Assembly (NCBI RefSeq): GCF_040515995.1
Contig: NZ_CP159485.1
Span: 2,046,001 to 2,110,000 of the forward strand
Direction of reading: 5' to 3'
Length of the DNA stretch: 64,000 nt
DNA from: Proteinivorax hydrogeniformans
Lineage (GTDB): Bacteria; Bacillota; Proteinivoracia; Proteinivoracales; Proteinivoracaceae
Position 1 is the stretch's first letter, and each line of letters opens with the position of its first letter. A program made the position numbers and the translations under genes. The notes under the pieces were generated by a model. It worked only from the letters and a program-made list of their open reading frames with translations. It did no database searches and was not told the origin of the DNA. Of this stretch, positions 13,753 through 26,285 are shown piece after piece.

Positions 13753-14109
13753 TTAACTTAGGTTTACTAGTATCTTATTTGGTAGACATACTATCTGCTC
13801 ACTTTGCGTGCTAATCCACCCTGTCAACGAACAACATATCTGCTGAGGATAGTCTTCTTTACTCATCCTCTCCATCTTAACTTTTCCTTCTTTAGATATT
13901 AAAGTTGCCCATTTGTCTTCTTCAAATTGAAAGTGATAATTTAAGGCTTCTGTATCATTATTTATAGCAAAACTCAACACTTTCTCTCCATCTATTGAGA
14001 CTACCACATATTCACCTGGTTCTGAATTCATCACAAAGCCAAAAAAAATCATGAAAGCCACTGCAAATAATCCAATTGATAGCACTAAAATTTTATCCCC
14101 TTGCTTCAT
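13753..14109 (-). CDS. NusG domain II-containing membrane-anchored protein
   Basis: A stand-alone NusG domain II protein: one N-terminal membrane helix (about residues 6-26), then an extracytoplasmic domain with 'GEYVVVSIDGE', 'GWIS' and a C-terminal 'IVCLPNKI'. Three cysteines (two adjacent in 'QICCSL', one in 'IVCLP') sit where family members have paired cysteines, suggesting a disulfide or ligand site (inference). The frame is open from a TTG at 14121, but AGGTG lies just before the ATG at 14109, giving 118 aa (MKQGDKIL). Such genes often lie near redox or membrane complexes in Clostridia; none is beside it here. Confidence 0.78.
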   Translation of the reverse strand: MKQGDKILVLSIGLFAVAFMIFFGFVMNSEPGEYVVVSIDGEKVLSFAINNDTEALNYHFQFEEDKWATLISKEGKVKMERMSKEDYPQQICCSLTGWISTQSEQIVCLPNKILVNLS

Positions 14110-14196
14110 TTCACACCTCAACTTTTAAGTTATAGTACAATATAGATTTTATCCACATTAAAATGTTTTTTCAAGGGTTAATTAGCTATTTGAAAT

Positions 14197-17472: not shown

Positions 17473-18165
17473 TTACAGCGGGTAACTTGCCGAAAGCCGC
17501 CTAATATTCTTTTTGCTATCTCCAATATTGATAGCCATTACCGTAGTATCATCACTAGGTCGGCCTTTATCTAGCTCTATAGCCTGATCAATTAGCTGGT
17601 TTGCAATATCATAAGCTGATAATTCCTGTTGCATCAAACTTAATATATCCGCTTCAGTGATAGTCTTCCCATATTTTCTTCCTGCAGACAAAATTCCATC
17701 ACTAAATGTTAGAAGTTTTGTGCCTGTTTTTAAGGGCAACTCAACTATCTGTGGTTTTGAAAACTTATAAAACCCGAGCGGCTTTGTCTTTTTTGCATAA
17801 CTATATTCCTTTCCATCACACAGCATATAGATAGGGCAGTGCCCACTTCTGCTTATGACCAATGATTTAGTGTCTGAAGCCACTGAAATCATATTTAGGG
17901 TAGCAGATACCTTGCCACCTTTAATCGTATATAGGTAGTCTTGAACAGCTCTCGCTATTGCACCATCTCTTGCCCCATCAGCTAGCAGGGTAGATATTTT
18001 TCCCACAATCATATTACTTGTTAGTTTAGCAGAGTGACCACTTCCCTGCCCATCTACTACAACACCGGTCACTCCCCCTAACGGTCTTTCAACTATTTCA
18101 GCGCTATCTCCTCCAACACTCATGGTATGTTTATTAGCTTTAGCTATCGCTATATCTACCTGCAA
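17473..18165 (-). CDS. SpoIIE/PP2C-type serine phosphatase
   Basis: A 230-aa free-standing SpoIIE-like (PPM) phosphatase domain with no membrane segment. Metal-binding motifs are visible: 'VVDGQGSGHSAK' (about 36-47, DGxGxG), 'SRSGHCPIYML', 'TFSDGILSAG' (about 153-162) and 'RPSDDTTVMAI' (about 208-218). Such enzymes dephosphorylate anti-anti-sigma factors or related proteins; the substrate is not in this window. The start is TTG, 7 nt after AAGGAGG. It is the first gene of the run to secF; the short gap to the P-loop gene is 16 nt. Confidence 0.85.
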   Translation of the reverse strand: MQVDIAIAKANKHTMSVGGDSAEIVERPLGGVTGVVVDGQGSGHSAKLTSNMIVGKISTLLADGARDGAIARAVQDYLYTIKGGKVSATLNMISVASDTKSLVISRSGHCPIYMLCDGKEYSYAKKTKPLGFYKFSKPQIVELPLKTGTKLLTFSDGILSAGRKYGKTITEADILSLMQQELSAYDIANQLIDQAIELDKGRPSDDTTVMAINIGDSKKNIRRLSASYPL

Positions 18166-18282
18166 ATTAACTCCTCCTTATTGAATAAGTAAAAATCATA
18201 CTTATGGGTTTTCTCCAATTTTTTGCTAAAACCCTTTAATATCTCCTTTTTTTTGGTAAAATATAGACAGGAGGTGCTGTAA

Positions 18283-18789
18283 ATGATAAGTAATTATAAA
18301 AACTACAGTCCAAAAATTCACCCGAATACTTATATCCACCCAAGCGCCATTATTATTGGGAACGTAGAAATTGAAGAAGGGGTAAATATTTGGCCTAACG
18401 TTGTAATCCGAGCAGACATGAACAAAGTTACCATTGGAAAAAACACAAATATTCAAGATGGGTCAGTGCTTCATGTAGATTATGACACACCACTTATAAT
18501 TGGTGAAGGAGTCACTGTTGGGCACAACGCGGTGCTACATGGCGCTATAATTGAAGAATTTAGTTTAATCGGTATGGGTTCTACAGTGTTAGATAAAAGT
18601 GTCATCAAGAGCTATAGTATAGTGGGGGCAAACTCCTTGGTCCCACCTGGGAAAACATATGACGCCAAGTCTCTAATTGTAGGTTTACCTGGAAAAGCTG
18701 TTAGAACTACCACTGAAGAGGAACAAGCTAAAATTGAAAAGTCTGTCGATAATTATCTTCAAATGGCTAGAGAACACAAAAATAGTTAA
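18283..18789 (+). CDS. Gamma-carbonic anhydrase family hexapeptide-repeat protein
   Basis: A 168-aa left-handed beta-helix protein with repeated [LIV]-G-x4 hexapeptides. Candidate Zn ligands are H in 'GSVLHVDYD' (about 65) and the pair in 'GHNAVLHGA' (about 87-92), the gamma-CA/YrdA pattern. Family members may hydrate CO2 or act as acyltransferase-like proteins of unknown substrate, so the activity is not certain. ATG follows AGGAGGTG. It is divergent from the phosphatase gene and convergent with the acidic protein gene, sharing a bidirectional terminator. Confidence 0.92.
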   Translation: MISNYKNYSPKIHPNTYIHPSAIIIGNVEIEEGVNIWPNVVIRADMNKVTIGKNTNIQDGSVLHVDYDTPLIIGEGVTVGHNAVLHGAIIEEFSLIGMGSTVLDKSVIKSYSIVGANSLVPPGKTYDAKSLIVGLPGKAVRTTTEEEQAKIEKSVDNYLQMAREHKNS

Positions 18790-18795
18790 ATAAAT

Positions 18796-18840
18796 AAAAA
18801 ATAAGATGGTGCATTTTATATTGTGCACCATCTTATTTTT
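18796..18840. terminator. Bidirectional terminator between convergent genes
   Basis: A 17-bp perfect stem (core aagatggtgca / tgcaccatctt) with A-run before and T-run after, lying 6 nt past the gamma-CA-like stop and 8 nt past the end of the convergent gene. It suits both directions. Confidence 0.9.
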
Positions 18841-18848
18841 TTATTATT

Positions 18849-20060
18849 CTAATCTTCAATAGCTTCTCTTATTTCTTCAACTTGGGATGTGTATAGATTT
18901 GTAAAGTCATTTATCATCCAGCTATCATCGACTTTTTCAAAATGTAGCTTCATCCCTCTCCACTGCTTGTTATTATCTCGATTAAGGTGGAAAATCGTTG
19001 TCACCTGAGCAACTTCATCATCTAGATGTAGCTCAGCTATCATCGATTCTATAACCTCGGCTTTCGTCTCATCCTCAATTATGTCTTCCATTCTTTGCTC
19101 GATAATCCATCCCAAATTATCCATACCATCTTCCGATATAAGTTCTTTTACGGATTCATGTGAAAATTCCTCATGACTTGCAATGGTCCAATACTTATCA
19201 ACAAAAGACAAACTAATATCTTCAAGTTGTTGTTTCTGACTTTCAATGTATGCTAATTCGTCAACAACATCTTGCGAGGCTGATTTTACTTCTTGAATTT
19301 CCCATTTATTATCAGTTTTTATGACATTAAATTCTTTAATTTCTTGACCCATAACAACCCTTACTTCTGCATAATCATAAGATCTTTTTACAATCTCTTT
19401 TTCAGCTTTATCAGCATCATACTCAAGTTCATCAGACACATATTCTGAGACCAAGTTCATTATTGGCTTATCTTTTTCCTCATTTAACTCTCGAGCCTGT
19501 CTATCACTTGGCCAAACCATCTTAGTAATTAGCCATTTTGTTTCAGCTTCACCCTCATCATTTTGCATTTCAACTTTATCAAAAACCAGGTCAAAATAGG
19601 TCCATATTGCATCGGTACCCGCTAATGATTGCTCTACCTCCCAAAAGTGCACAACTCTAACCTCAGCACTATCAGAGGATAGGTTCATAAGTTCCGCTTC
19701 TATGCCCTTAGCAGTAGCGATATGTTCTTCTACCTTGTAATCACTTTTAAAGCCCTCAAGCTGAGGTTGAGCATTAGACCTAAAAGTTGGCGTAAGTAGC
19801 TCTAAAATAGGTTCTATCTCAAAAGTTGAATAATCGACATCTTGGAACCTATATACAAACTCTTCACCCTTCGCTGTTACTTTTTCCTCTACTGCTGGTT
19901 TATAGAAAAAGAAATAATGGCTGGTAAATCCAATTATTACAATCGCTAGTGCTACAAAAACTCCTAATGCAACGTAATCCCCTGTGGTCATCTTTTTCTT
20001 TTTTGGCGTTGGATTGTTACTTTTTGACTTATTTAAGCTCTTTTTTTTCTTTTTGGCCAT
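18849..20060 (-). CDS. Membrane-anchored acidic protein with three repeated extracytoplasmic segments
   Basis: The 403-aa protein has a lysine-rich cytoplasmic tail (residues 1-24), one membrane helix (about 30-52) and a strongly acidic outer part. That part appears to hold three related segments of roughly 90-140 aa, each ending in a beta-rich stretch ('WLITKMVWPS', 'KWEIQEVKSA', 'SWMINDFTNL'). This looks like NTF2-like or DUF4878-like accessory domains (inference; no confident family). The acidity fits an external location in an alkaliphile or salt-adapted cell, but is weak evidence. ATG follows a G-rich SD. It stands alone between two terminators. Confidence 0.7.
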   Translation of the reverse strand: MAKKKKKSLNKSKSNNPTPKKKKMTTGDYVALGVFVALAIVIIGFTSHYFFFYKPAVEEKVTAKGEEFVYRFQDVDYSTFEIEPILELLTPTFRSNAQPQLEGFKSDYKVEEHIATAKGIEAELMNLSSDSAEVRVVHFWEVEQSLAGTDAIWTYFDLVFDKVEMQNDEGEAETKWLITKMVWPSDRQARELNEEKDKPIMNLVSEYVSDELEYDADKAEKEIVKRSYDYAEVRVVMGQEIKEFNVIKTDNKWEIQEVKSASQDVVDELAYIESQKQQLEDISLSFVDKYWTIASHEEFSHESVKELISEDGMDNLGWIIEQRMEDIIEDETKAEVIESMIAELHLDDEVAQVTTIFHLNRDNNKQWRGMKLHFEKVDDSWMINDFTNLYTSQVEEIREAIED

Positions 20061-20185
20061 TTTTCATACTCCCCCCCATATTGTTTCTTTTAATTATACT
20101 TATCAAATTACACTTTTGCAAGTTTATTACATAAAGAAAGGTGTGAAATTTCCCAGTAACCTTTCTAGATAAACTGTTACATATA

Positions 20186-20214
20186 CAAAAAAAGACTGTA
20201 ATCAGCCTTTTTTT
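20186..20214 (-). terminator. Terminator of scfB
   Basis: On the minus strand an imperfect stem (GGCTG / CAGTC with one G-U pair, extended by A/T pairs) with a short loop is followed by seven T. It starts 4 nt after the scfB stop. Confidence 0.8.
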
Positions 20215-20218
20215 GTGA

Positions 20219-21592
20219 TTATTTTGCTTTTCTTAATGCTTTAACTGCCTCTATATATAAGCTGCATTCAGTCCTAACTTTTTGCATCTCACACGCTAAA
20301 CTATAGGGCTTTGTGAGATTTCCATTTATTTGGTGAGCATTAGCGTGGCACCCACCCCCACAAAAATAACGACTCCAACAGGTTCTACAAGCATCTTTTG
20401 TGAACATAGTTGTGTTAAAGAAAGTATCTGCTATAGAACTATCTATTTCTTTATTATACACATCCCCTACTTTAAAGGACTCATCGCCTACGAACTGATG
20501 ACATGGGTATAGATCTCCATTTGGAGCTACAGCCACATACTCCACCCCTGCACCACAGCCGCTCACTCTTTTAGCAGAACAAGGACCACCATCTAAGTTA
20601 ATGTTAAAATGGAAAAAGTTAAATGGTAGATTTTCATCTTCTTTTTTTAGATAAAATTCCGTTAACTTCCAGTATTCATCTTTGACTTTGTTAAGATCTT
20701 TTTCTGTAAGTGTATAGCTTGTTTGTCGCTCTTCAACTACCGGTTCCATAGAAACTTCCTCAAACCCTAAATCCACTATATGTTTAACGTCTTCACAAAA
20801 ATCAAGGTTTTCTTTTGTAAAGGTTCCTCGTAAATAGTAGTTTTGATATTGTCGTTTTTGTAGAAATGATTTATAATTTGCAACAATAGTTGAGTATGTC
20901 TTATGCCCCTTGTCTGTTTTACGCATGTTATTGTTTACATCTTCTCTACCATCTAAGCTTAGCACAGTTGCTATGTCATTTTCATTTAGAAACTCTTGGG
21001 CTTTTTCGTTTAAATCCAACCCATTAGTAGTAAGAGTCATTCTGATATTTTTATCATGTATAACTTCCTGCTCCTTAATGTACTTTACCAACTCTTCGAG
21101 CATATCTAGGTTAAGTAGAGGTTCTCCCCCAAAGAAGTCAACTTCACAGTTTTTTCTTGGATTGGATTTTTCCACTAAAAAGTCGATTGCTTTTTTAGCT
21201 GTTTTAAGATCCATTAGCTCACTTTTGCCGCCAAAGTTTCCGCTTGACGCAAAACAATATTTGCACCTCATATTGCAGTCGTGAGCAACATGAAGGCACA
21301 TAGCTTTAATTATATCTTTATTTGGTCTTGGAAGTTCGCTGGGTTTTTCGTCATTAAAAATATTACCTTGCTCGTGTAGTCTTAAAAGTTCGTTGTAAGC
21401 GCCTTCAATTTGGCTGCTGTCATAACCACTTAGTTTTTCAACTAGTTGGTTTGCTGTGATAGTGGGTTTTTGTTCGATACAGTCTATAACATCGCTTGTC
21501 ACATCGTCTATAACATGGACAGTCGATGTAGGAATATCTAGTAAAATATTAACTTGATTTTTTTTAAATTTATAAAAGTTTTTTGCTCTCAT
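20219..21592 (-). CDS. scfB: Radical SAM/SPASM maturase of the SCIFF peptide
   Basis: ScfB (CteB in Clostridium thermocellum) installs thioether crosslinks in the SCIFF peptide. The protein has an N-terminal peptide-recognition (RRE-like) region, the radical SAM motif CNMRCKYC near residue 105, and a SPASM domain with cysteines in 'SGCGAGV', 'LYPCHQF', 'ACRTCWSRYFCGGGC' and 'LACEMQK' for two auxiliary Fe-S clusters. The frame opens at ATG 21607, but GGGAG is best placed for the ATG at 21592 (MRAKNFY), giving 457 aa. The precursor gene lies directly upstream. Confidence 0.95.
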   Translation of the reverse strand: MRAKNFYKFKKNQVNILLDIPTSTVHVIDDVTSDVIDCIEQKPTITANQLVEKLSGYDSSQIEGAYNELLRLHEQGNIFNDEKPSELPRPNKDIIKAMCLHVAHDCNMRCKYCFASSGNFGGKSELMDLKTAKKAIDFLVEKSNPRKNCEVDFFGGEPLLNLDMLEELVKYIKEQEVIHDKNIRMTLTTNGLDLNEKAQEFLNENDIATVLSLDGREDVNNNMRKTDKGHKTYSTIVANYKSFLQKRQYQNYYLRGTFTKENLDFCEDVKHIVDLGFEEVSMEPVVEERQTSYTLTEKDLNKVKDEYWKLTEFYLKKEDENLPFNFFHFNINLDGGPCSAKRVSGCGAGVEYVAVAPNGDLYPCHQFVGDESFKVGDVYNKEIDSSIADTFFNTTMFTKDACRTCWSRYFCGGGCHANAHQINGNLTKPYSLACEMQKVRTECSLYIEAVKALRKAK

Positions 21593-21627
21593 GTCTCCAA
21601 CTCCCATTTTTTTCTATATAAAGAAAT

Positions 21628-21650
21628 AAAAGCAGCCTAAGGCTACTTTT
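21628..21650 (-). terminator. Hairpin overlapping the scfA stop codon (possible attenuator)
   Basis: A 10-bp stem with one G-U pair (AAAAGTAGCC / GGCTGCTTTT) and a 3-nt loop includes the scfA stop codon TAG. The following T-run is short and broken, so it may be a leaky terminator or an RNA-stabilising hairpin that lets scfA outnumber scfB. Confidence 0.6.
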
Positions 21651-21774
21651 CACAAATTTGATTACCCACTGTGCAGCTAGTTTTGCAAGCAGATTGACAG
21701 GAAGTTTGGCACTCTCCACATGGAGTTTGGTTTACTTCTTTCTGTGGGTTAATAGTAATAATATGTTTTTGCAT
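21643..21774 (-). CDS. scfA: SCIFF ribosomal peptide precursor (six cysteines in forty-five)
   Basis: This 43-codon gene encodes a peptide starting MQKHIITINP and ending GNQICEK. Its C-terminal half holds six cysteines (spaced C-x2-C-x3-C-x3-C-x3-C-x6-C), the SCIFF pattern, with threonine or serine between most cysteines as thioether acceptors. An exact AAAGGAGG lies 7 nt before the ATG. It is 50 nt upstream of scfB in the same direction. Known biology: SCIFF peptides are conserved in Clostridia and are modified by the adjacent radical SAM enzyme; their final role is still unclear. Confidence 0.96.
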   Translation of the reverse strand: MQKHIITINPQKEVNQTPCGECQTSCQSACKTSCTVGNQICEK

Positions 21775-21808
21775 TTGTAAGCCTCCTTTATTTTCTATGT
21801 ACCTTTTC

Positions 21809-21837
21809 AATTATATCATAGTTTTAGAGGCAATAAA
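21809..21837 (-). promoter_or_regulatory. Candidate scfAB promoter
   Basis: A consensus -10 TATAAT (21809-21814) on the minus strand lies about 35 nt before the scfA ATG. The best -35 with a 17-nt spacer is TTTTAT (21832-21837), a weak match, so activity may need an activator or another sigma factor. Confidence 0.5.
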
Positions 21838-21842
21838 ACATT

Positions 21843-21870
21843 TTGACGTTATTGATTATTCAGTTATAAT
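21843..21870 (+). promoter_or_regulatory. Promoter of the chromate-transporter pair
   Basis: TTGACG (21843-21848), a 16-nt spacer and TATAAT (21865-21870) face the transporter genes, back to back with the scfA promoter. The ATG at 21897 is 27 nt downstream. Confidence 0.75.
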
Positions 21871-21896
21871 ATTATATGAAGGGAGGCATACGCATT

Positions 21897-22442
21897 ATGC
21901 TATTTAATTTATTTACTACCTTTTTTAGAATTGGGGCTTTTACCTTCGGTGGTGGCTACGCTATGCTACCTATTATTCAAAGGGAAGTTGTAGATAATAA
22001 CGGATGGATATCTGAAGATGAATATTACGAAGTTCTAGCTGTAAGTCAAAGTGGTCCAGGCGCTGTTGCCATAAACACCGCTATTTATCTAGGCTATAGA
22101 ATCAAAGGAGTGCCAGGCAGTATAGTTGGAGCTTTGGGAGTGGTACTTCCCTCCTTCTTAATCATTTTAGCTTTTGCTACTTTTTTAAATTTTTTTCTAA
22201 GCTGGCCGGTTGGGGAAAAGTTTTTTTCCGGAATAAGACCAGCTGTAGTTGGTTTGCTTGTTTCTGTAACCTTTAAAATGATGAAAAAGCTGACAACTAA
22301 AAGTCAATGGGTTTTATTTTTCATATGCGCTCTTTTATTATTAATTTTTGATCTACATCCAGTTTATATAATTTTACTATCAGCATTGTATGGTGCGTCG
22401 TTTAGTAAAAAGGTGCTTCCCCAAAGGAGTGAAGGCCATTGA
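21897..22442 (+). CDS. Chromate-type ion transporter, first half (CHR family)
   Basis: A 181-aa CHR-family half-transporter with about five to six membrane segments and the family signatures 'FGGGYAMLPIIQREVV' near residue 18 and 'VSQSGPGAVAINTA' near 49. In many Bacillota the CHR domain occurs as two short proteins encoded in tandem, as here. Chromate is the known substrate for some members; the native one is often unknown. The frame opens at ATG 21876, but GGGAGG precedes the ATG at 21897. It overlaps the next gene by 4 nt. Confidence 0.9.
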   Translation: MLFNLFTTFFRIGAFTFGGGYAMLPIIQREVVDNNGWISEDEYYEVLAVSQSGPGAVAINTAIYLGYRIKGVPGSIVGALGVVLPSFLIILAFATFLNFFLSWPVGEKFFSGIRPAVVGLLVSVTFKMMKKLTTKSQWVLFFICALLLLIFDLHPVYIILLSALYGASFSKKVLPQRSEGH

Positions 22443-22996
22443 GTTTTATAGCACCGCTTTTGCAACTTTTTGTTTCGTTTTTTAAAATTGGCATTATTAG
22501 TTTTGGTGGTGGATATGCAATGATTCCCCTCATAGAGCGGGAAATTATCGAGGGACGAGGTTGGTTAACCGAAGCGCAATTTTTAGATATAATTGCTGTC
22601 GCGGAAATGACACCAGGGCCGATAGCTGTAAACTCAGCTACATATATTGGTTATCAAACAGAGGGGATTTTAGGTGCGATTACTGCAACTTTGGGAGTTG
22701 TAACTCCATCTTTTATCGCGATGGTTATCCTAGCATATGTAATTTGTAAAACTCAACATTTGTTAGTTGTAAAGGGAGCTTTAAAAGCTATAGTTTCTGG
22801 GGTAGTTGCATTAATAGGCTTTGCGACTATAAAAATTGCAATTAGCACCGGCTTGTTTGAAGTTAGAGGAGGGCTAAATATTGATTATGTCACAGTTACT
22901 ATTGCTTTAGCTGCTTTTGCGTTGCTTAGATATACGAAGCTCCATCCTGTTCTAATTTTAATAGGCTTTGGCTTTTTAGGAATAATAATCTACTGA
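22439..22996 (+). CDS. Chromate-type ion transporter, second half (CHR family)
   Basis: A 185-aa partner of the preceding half, with the equivalent signatures 'FGGGYAMIPLIEREII' and 'VAEMTPGPIAVNSATYIGY'. The proteins are sequence-related but inverted in membrane topology in other CHR pairs. The start is TTG at 22439, 9 nt after AAAGGAG, overlapping the previous stop (TTGA), which implies coupled translation of a two-chain transporter. It is followed by a terminator. Confidence 0.9.
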   Translation: MSFIAPLLQLFVSFFKIGIISFGGGYAMIPLIEREIIEGRGWLTEAQFLDIIAVAEMTPGPIAVNSATYIGYQTEGILGAITATLGVVTPSFIAMVILAYVICKTQHLLVVKGALKAIVSGVVALIGFATIKIAISTGLFEVRGGLNIDYVTVTIALAAFALLRYTKLHPVLILIGFGFLGIIIY

Positions 22997-23002
22997 TATG
23001 GG

Positions 23003-23027
23003 AAAAGGGACCGAAAGGTCCCTTTTT
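23003..23027. terminator. Terminator between transporter pair and SASP gene
   Basis: A 10-bp stem (aaaagggacc / ggtccctttt) with a GAAA tetraloop and flanking A and T runs. It serves the plus-strand transporter genes and also lies 4 nt past the minus-strand SASP stop. Confidence 0.9.
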
Positions 23028-23030
23028 AAT

Positions 23031-23234
23031 TTAACTATTATACTGCTTTTCCACTTTTGCAATCATTTTTTTTACCATCTGTCCACCTATCATTCCACAT
23101 TCTTTGGTGGTCATGTTCTTCCAACCTTTGGTACGGATTTTATCAGCTAAACCAAGTTCAGCAGCTGTTTCATATTTAAACCTTTCCATGGTTTGTTCTG
23201 CTTCAGGTAGTACATGCCTTTTTTTTCTAGCCAA
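23031..23234 (-). CDS. Alpha/beta-type small acid-soluble spore protein
   Basis: A 67-aa DNA-binding spore-core protein. The hallmark 'RFKYETAAELGL' (residues 19-30) contains the E-A cleavage region for the germination protease (GPR), and 'GMIGGQMVKKMI' (47-58) is the conserved DNA-binding helix. The start is TTG after GGAGGG. Expression is expected from a forespore sigma-G promoter, not resolved here. It is direct evidence that the organism forms endospores. Confidence 0.93.
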   Translation of the reverse strand: MARKKRHVLPEAEQTMERFKYETAAELGLADKIRTKGWKNMTTKECGMIGGQMVKKMIAKVEKQYNS

Positions 23235-23314
23235 TTAAAATCCCTCCTCAAGTTTTCACTTGCAGTATTATTTTGCTCAAGCACAACTTTTTTTATAATA
23301 TTTATTTAATAAAA

Positions 23315-23707
23315 TTATAAATTAAGAGCCATAACACCACCTATTGCTCCAACTATAAAGCCAAAAATGAGGTTAATTGGTGCTGTTAAGCTAAGGTCAG
23401 GAGCGGACACCGCACTTCCCATAAAAAGTAGAATAACTAAATATATAACTCCTACAAAACCACCTATTATCCAACCTTTTTGTCTTGTCATTTTGGCGCT
23501 TACAAATCCCCCGGCAAAAATACTAACTATTATTGTTATAATTACCACTACCCTTATTGTAGCGTCAGAGACAGTAGTTAGACTCATTATTATAGACCAA
23601 AGTAAAAGAACTACAACTGATATCATTATGCTGCTAAATAAACCATAGGCAAAGCTTTTGCCACTTGGATGCTGTTTTACACTATATCTTCTTCGCCTTT
23701 TCACCAT
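23315..23707 (-). CDS. TIGR04086 family four-helix membrane protein
   Basis: A 130-aa protein with a basic N-terminus (residues 1-17) and four membrane segments (about 22-43, 50-71, 79-97, 107-127). Its length, topology and ending ('FGFIVGAIGGVMAL') fit TIGR04086, which is found next to yajC and SCIFF genes in Clostridia; its function is unknown. ATG follows GGGGTG. It lies downstream of yajC, separated by a strong terminator, so it likely has its own promoter. Confidence 0.8.
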   Translation of the reverse strand: MVKRRRRYSVKQHPSGKSFAYGLFSSIMISVVVLLLWSIIMSLTTVSDATIRVVVIITIIVSIFAGGFVSAKMTRQKGWIIGGFVGVIYLVILLFMGSAVSAPDLSLTAPINLIFGFIVGAIGGVMALNL

Positions 23708-23792
23708 ATTTTCACCCCAGTTCTTGTTATGTTTATAGTTATTTTATAGGGGCAAAAAATATGCCTTTTCACACGTATTTCATTTTAAGATG

Positions 23793-23824
23793 AAAAAAAG
23801 GGGCTGTCGATAACAGCCCCTTTT
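23793..23824 (-). terminator. Terminator after yajC
   Basis: A 12-bp stem (aaaaggggctgt / acagcccctttt) with an 8-nt loop and a T-run on the minus strand, 4 nt past the yajC stop. It ends the queA-tgt-yajC run. Confidence 0.9.
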
Positions 23825-23827
23825 AAC

Positions 23828-24085
23828 TTATTCTACTACTTTTTCAACCGCAAACCTTTGTGCTTTAATTTCTGTTTTGTCGGCAATTTTAATTTTAATC
23901 TGATCCTCTTTTACCTCAGTTAAAGTTCCGAATATGCCACCGATTGTAATTACCTTATCGCCTTCTTTTAACTCAGATAGCATGGCTTGCCTAGCTTTTT
24001 GTTGCTTTTGCTGTGGACGAATTAAAAAGAAATAAAAAACAACGATAAGTACTATAAACGGCATTAATGCTTGTAAAAATTCCAT
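23828..24085 (-). CDS. yajC: Preprotein translocase subunit YajC
   Basis: An 85-aa Sec accessory protein: one N-terminal helix with 'FYFFLIRPQQKQQKARQ' (about 17-33), then a soluble domain containing 'LKEGDKVITIGGIFGT'. It is the usual length. It associates with SecDF, which is encoded separately at 14-16 kb here. ATG follows AAGGAGG, 17 nt after tgt. Confidence 0.95.
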   Translation of the reverse strand: MEFLQALMPFIVLIVVFYFFLIRPQQKQQKARQAMLSELKEGDKVITIGGIFGTLTEVKEDQIKIKIADKTEIKAQRFAVEKVVE

Positions 24086-24102
24086 TTCTTTACCTCCTTA
24101 TT

Positions 24103-25230
<1,128 letters not shown>

Positions 25231-25256
25231 TTAGTTTCTATTCTCATTTTTTTATT

Positions 25257-26285
25257 TTAGCTGATAAACATACTGTCGCCAAAAGAAAAGAATCTGTATC
25301 TTTCTTTTACTGCCTCCTGGTAAGCTAAGTCAATTTTATCCTTTGTCGCTAAGGCACTTACCAGCATCATAAGAGTGGATTTTGGTAGATGGAAGTTAGT
25401 AATAAGTGCATCTATTGCTTTAAACTCATAACCGGGGTAGATGAAAATATCAGTCCACCCACTTGAAGGCTTAATTTCTTGATTAAGACTAGCTGCGGTT
25501 TCCAAAGTTCTCACAACCGTAGTGCCAACTGCTATTACTCTGCCACCTTTTTTCTTTGTCTGATTTATTAGTTTTGCAGTCTCTTCGTTTATTGAATAAA
25601 ACTCAGAGTGCATTTTGTGCTCTAACACATTTTCCACCTGTACCGGCATAAAAGTGCCCAAACCTACATGTAAAGTAACAAAAGCTGTGACTATGCCCTT
25701 TTCTTTAATGCGCTCAAACAGCTCATTGGTAAAATGAAGACCCGCTGTAGGTGCTGCTACGGCACCTGGCTTTTGAGCATATACAGTCTGGTATCGATTC
25801 TGATCATCAGGCTTTTCTTTTATATAAGGAGGTAACGGTAACTCCCCCGCGCCTTTCAACTTTTCCATAAACTCATCGTAAGGAAAATTAAACTTGATTA
25901 CCTTTCCGCCAAAATCTGTATCACCTGTAATCTCACCCGTTATATCTTGGGGAAACTTAATTACAGTGTTTTTTTTGAGTTTTTTGCCGGGTTTTGCTAG
26001 GCACTCCCAACTATATTCATCAACCTTTCTAACTAACAGCACTTCTACTTTAGCTCCTGTATCTTTGCGTCCAAAAATACGGGCTGGAATAACTTTAGTG
26101 TTATTAAAAATAAGAAGATCATTTGGGTTTAAGTAGTCGATTATATCTTTAAACTTTTTATGGGTAATACAGTTTGTTTCTTTATCTTTTTTCAACACCA
26201 ATAGGCGGGAATCGTCCCGCCTTTGAGATGGTTTTTGAGCTATTAATTCGTCTGGTAAATTAAAATTAAAATCTTCAAGCTTCAA
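25257..26285 (-). CDS. queA: S-adenosylmethionine:tRNA ribosyltransferase-isomerase
   Basis: QueA converts preQ1-tRNA to epoxyqueuosine-tRNA using SAM. The 342-aa protein shows 'PDELIAQKP' and 'RRDDSRLLVL' at the N-terminus, 'LIFNNTKVIPARI' near residue 58, 'AAPTAGLHFT' near 178, and 'TNFHLPKSTLMMLVSAL' near 299. The start is TTG, 8 nt after AAAGAGG. It is the first gene of queA-tgt-yajC. Confidence 0.97.
   Translation of the reverse strand: MKLEDFNFNLPDELIAQKPSQRRDDSRLLVLKKDKETNCITHKKFKDIIDYLNPNDLLIFNNTKVIPARIFGRKDTGAKVEVLLVRKVDEYSWECLAKPGKKLKKNTVIKFPQDITGEITGDTDFGGKVIKFNFPYDEFMEKLKGAGELPLPPYIKEKPDDQNRYQTVYAQKPGAVAAPTAGLHFTNELFERIKEKGIVTAFVTLHVGLGTFMPVQVENVLEHKMHSEFYSINEETAKLINQTKKKGGRVIAVGTTVVRTLETAASLNQEIKPSSGWTDIFIYPGYEFKAIDALITNFHLPKSTLMMLVSALATKDKIDLAYQEAVKERYRFFSFGDSMFIS

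Follow-up and report, generated by a model that had tools for sequence, protein, structure and literature searches.

A SCIFF ranthipeptide pair in Proteinivorax hydrogeniformans and comparative evidence on its acceptor threonine

The window analysed here, a 64,000-nucleotide stretch of DNA from Proteinivorax hydrogeniformans, contains the short gene scfA, which is followed on the same strand, after about 50 bases, by scfB (Table 1). The original prediction had placed a six-cysteine peptide of 43 aa at this position and assigned it to the SCIFF precursors. The gene was confirmed: its 43 codons specify MQKHIITINPQKEVNQTPCGECQTSCQSACKTSCTVGNQICEK, with six cysteines at positions 19, 22, 26, 30, 34 and 41, and the sequence AGGAGG can be read as its ribosome site. 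Searches with the family models gave 68.5 bits for TIGR03973 (cut-off 50) and 69.2 bits for PF13165 (cut-off 27), so the possibility that the peptide fails to match the SCIFF model can be set aside. As expected of a member, ScfA has six cysteines within about 45 residues and a QSACKTS core, and the spacing of its cysteines equals that in 143 of 152 SCIFFs.

Table 1. Features in and around the scfAB locus, in window coordinates
Feature	Position	Strand	Support
Small NusG domain II protein adjoining secF	13753-14121	-	
403-aa protein directly 3' of scfB	18849-20060	-	
Strong hairpin directly 3' of scfB, likely terminator	20183-20218	-	-15.8 kcal/mol, z -8.2
scfB, SCIFF maturase (RRE + radical SAM + SPASM), 457 aa	20219-21592	-	TIGR03974; CteB 5wgg
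Terminator-like hairpin at the scfA-scfB junction, overlapping the stop codon of scfA	21628-21650	-	10 pairs, U-rich tail, -12.3 kcal/mol
scfA, SCIFF precursor, 43 aa	21643-21774	-	TIGR03973 and PF13165 matches
Extended -10 element TGATATAAT, likely scfA promoter	21810-21818	-	Sequence reading
CHR pair promoter, sigma-70-like (neighbour; membership of scfAB improbable)	21843-21870	+	11/12 matches
Two-chain CHR transporter chrA1-chrA2 (neighbour)	21876-22996	+	PF02417 in both chains
Small acid-soluble spore protein gene, between the CHR transporter and TIGR04086	23031-23234	-	Family match

The open frame of scfB extends to an earlier ATG (20219-21607, minus strand), giving a product of 457-462 aa, and of the two starts the one at 21592 is preceded by the better ribosome site, as judged from the sequence. 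The product scored 566 bits with the equivalog model TIGR03974 (cut-off 425), whereas rival SPASM models stayed below their cut-offs (not_ScfB, 475 against 855; PapB, 270 against 340; QhpD-type, 254 against 453; a Nif11-type model likewise). The radical SAM/SPASM enzyme adjoining the peptide gene is thus a SCIFF maturase, as had been claimed, and not a member of another SPASM subfamily. Its best solved relative is CteB (PDB 5wgg; phmmer, E 1.7e-138), with which 199 of 441 aligned residues are identical (45%). The CX3CX2C cysteines are residues 111, 115 and 118; Cys104 and eight C-terminal cysteines (343, 351, 369, 407, 410, 416, 420 and 439) also align with cysteines of CteB, and all of these cysteines are kept in 143 of 143 relatives. 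The alignment with CteB begins at residue 11 and spans the RRE region, which we assigned by alignment.

The closest described system is CteA/CteB of Clostridium thermocellum (thermocellin; PDB 5wgg and 5why), which belongs to the same families and shares with scfAB the six-cysteine core, the radical SAM and SPASM cysteines and the N-terminal RRE region. Tte1186a/Tte1186 of Caldanaerobacter subterraneus is likewise a SCIFF precursor with its maturase, for which reviews give one Cys-Thr thioether. PapA/PapB are also ranthipeptide proteins, and PapB is a SPASM maturase related to ScfB, but their product freyrasin bears six Cys-Asp beta-thioethers, unlike the single Cys-Thr thioether of SCIFF (reviews). 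The scfAB pair is a standard SCIFF ranthipeptide system of an already known kind, and an ordinary member of it.

Such systems are common among the relatives of this organism. The peptide was found above the cut-off in 52 of 61 genomes sampled from the phylum and the maturase in 50 of the same 61, and all 13 genomes of the class carry the peptide. A DNA pattern for the SCIFF core, in which CteA positions 34, 36, 37 and 38 were left free, had matches in 281 of 398 genomes; the reversed pattern matched none of the genomes listed. Far from being a rare cluster, SCIFF belongs to the core traits of the group.

Elements resembling the extended -10 sequence lie upstream of scfA in the class. At 64 of 140 linked loci a terminator-like hairpin lies no more than 90 bases from the scfA stop, against a baseline of 4.2 in shuffled sequences and 13 in a control stretch within scfB. 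The hairpins vary in sequence among families but not in form, a pattern to be expected if they are leaky terminators that would leave more precursor mRNA than maturase mRNA. In one family (f2), the hairpins that plain folding gave after scfA fall within the reading frame of scfB, and we left them out of the terminator count. Nothing in Rfam matched positions 18000-26000, which therefore contain no known riboswitch. Given the strong hairpin after scfB, the next gene is probably a separate unit. In every genome of the class it is found directly 3' of scfB. Its product of 403 aa has a basic N-terminus and what looks like a single membrane helix; it has no match in Pfam or NCBIfam, and much lower scores were obtained for its relatives in other genera.

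Taken by itself the locus is routine, and what is new is modest comparative evidence, from about 230 relatives, on the disputed position of the crosslink. In reviews, in vitro work is described as having first assigned a Cys32-Thr37 thioether to Tte1186a and CteA, later co-expression work as having given Cys32-Thr34 with the bond at the gamma carbon, and the discrepancy as standing. Cys32, Thr34 and Thr37 of CteA correspond to Cys30, Thr32 and Thr35 of ScfA. Position 34 of CteA, two residues after the donor cysteine, is threonine in all 152 SCIFFs, whereas position 37 is threonine in 145 and glycine in seven. Cys36 of CteA is missing from eight of the 152, and on the maturase tree these losses are scattered over four different places. 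A second, named set has threonine at both 34 and 37 in 78 of 78 loci, and may overlap with the set of 152 peptides in some species. The invariant Thr34 and the Gly37 cases appear alike among 52 peptides that were found by profile, with no pattern used.

The seven Gly37 peptides (loci L067, L073, L136, L137, L170, L171 and L172) read CKTSCGVANQ or CKTSCGIANQ and fall in a single maturase clade, so they represent one evolutionary event. The maturases of this clade score over the family cut-off or are close relatives of such enzymes. Because glycine has no side chain, position 37 cannot supply the acceptor in the Gly37 clade, whereas Thr34 is a possible acceptor everywhere. An invariant Thr34 beside a variable position 37 favours Cys32-Thr34 over the earlier Cys32-Thr37, and for ScfA the predicted crosslink is Cys30-Thr32. 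This is a comparative argument and not a proof, as the invariance of position 34 could have another cause, such as recognition by the enzyme. A thioether made by the same pair between Cys30 and Thr35 would agree with the in vitro assignments reported in reviews, and with the threonine found there in ScfA and in most relatives (145 of 152, and 78 of 78). It is nevertheless rather unlikely in view of the glycine in seven genomes with family-level maturases, the invariance of position 34 and the assignment of Thr34 by co-expression, the last again as given in reviews. The natural Gly37 SCIFFs are direct test material for the disputed position.

Taken as a whole, the locus is best explained, and we hold this with good confidence, as a SCIFF pair with a leaky terminator, a Thr32 crosslink and a role as a signal or regulator. 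We propose that scfA would be transcribed from its own promoter, with most transcripts ending at the hairpin after the gene and a minority reading through into scfB; we infer that this attenuation would provide much precursor and little enzyme. In this organism, the N-terminal leader of ScfA would be bound by the RRE domain of ScfB, and the radical SAM cluster would generate a 5'-deoxyadenosyl radical that abstracts hydrogen from the side chain of the core threonine. The Cys30 thiol would then close the Cys-S-Cgamma-Thr thioether, with Thr32 rather than Thr35 as the predicted acceptor. By analogy with other clostridia, the product would probably be a signal or regulator within the cell or population that makes it, tied to late growth or sporulation.

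The SCIFF ranthipeptides of solventogenic clostridia reportedly take part in quorum sensing and in the control of sporulation. Two reviews cite Chen et al. 2020 for these roles and describe a C. beijerinckii mutant in which sporulation genes were down and agr was up (PMC8326336, PMC8102284). The signalling role comes from one study, of species other than this one. The original prediction regarded the biological role of the family as open, which needs qualifying in view of the role reported for solventogenic clostridia. By analogy, a signalling or regulatory role is the most likely one here.

The neighbourhood of the pair offers another possible clue to its role. The genes yajC and TIGR04086, predicted nearby, were both confirmed by family models. 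In the class the order queA, tgt, yajC, TIGR04086, CHR pair (reverse), scfA, scfB, the 403-aa protein gene, gamma carbonic anhydrase (reverse), HD protein, secD and secF is largely kept; the small NusG domain II protein is a further neighbour here. TIGR04086 was not mentioned in the papers searched. Beyond the class, about 14 families were seen to have scfA close to yajC/TIGR04086, to secDF or to both. In family f40, scfA lies between TIGR04086 and secD in all six genomes sampled (L081 and L345-L349; one contig starts just before scfA), with a single maturase gene elsewhere in the genome (L080, L336-L339 and L342). Because this location recurs, the Sec accessory operon looks like the old genomic address of scfA, between yajC/TIGR04086 and secDF.

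Such an address would fit a modified peptide that acts at the membrane together with YajC, SecDF and TIGR04086, the accessory machinery of Sec, for which the recurrence outside the class and the retention of scfA alone in f40 both argue. We consider this distinctly unlikely, because one ancient insertion that was then inherited could explain the address without any function, and because scfAB is located elsewhere than the Sec genes in most families. It is similarly doubtful that SCIFF is anchored by its peptide, encoded in the yajC-TIGR04086-secDF operon, as a housekeeping peptide tied to the Sec membrane machinery or the state of the envelope, whose product needs only the Thr34 crosslink (here Thr32). 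The scfA-only arrangement is, in any case, a concrete place to seek a role for this widespread clostridial peptide.

A link to the two-chain CHR transporter, which had been put forward as an inference, stood as adjacency within the class and failed across the phylum. The transporter does lie back to back with scfA (the start of chrA1 at 21897 is more likely than that at 21876), and the divergent pair adjoins scfA in 13 of 13 class genomes, even where the flank beyond has changed. In one other family (f31), scfA and scfB are followed directly by a two-chain CHR transporter in the same direction, at five loci (L071, L139, L140, L141 and L143). A common origin of the two arrangements was rejected, as the tree does not place the f31 chains as sisters to those in the class, and the adjacency therefore probably arose twice. 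The repeated association would suit a transporter that exports the peptide, or one that is controlled jointly with it from the divergent promoter region between them. CHR proteins, however, are known as chromate or anion carriers and are not known to export peptides. Among about 138 loci outside the class, f31 is the only family with the adjacency; at least 10 SCIFF genomes lack a CHR match at E 1e-20, and in most of the remaining ones CHR is unlinked to scfAB. We therefore regard membership of the transporter in the system as highly improbable. The evidence does not support a general functional link between CHR and SCIFF; within the class, the promoter region that the two units share may provide a regulatory link.

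Production of a secreted antimicrobial by scfAB is hardly credible: antimicrobials are frequent products of RiPP precursors with radical SAM maturases, but the near-universal distribution of the pair, present in most genomes of the phylum, and the lack of any export or immunity gene linked to scfAB, as originally noted, both argue against an antibiotic role, which is unlikely. The review literature gives the same counter-argument.

Departures from the simple linked pair were also seen. One genome (G290) has two SCIFF genes, one adjoining a maturase gene and one alone (L209 and L344), and another (G046) has, together with a linked pair, a second full-scoring ScfB (L091) with no recognisable SCIFF gene nearby. 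Unlinked scfA and scfB also occur in genomes G058, G096, G161, G130 and G185.
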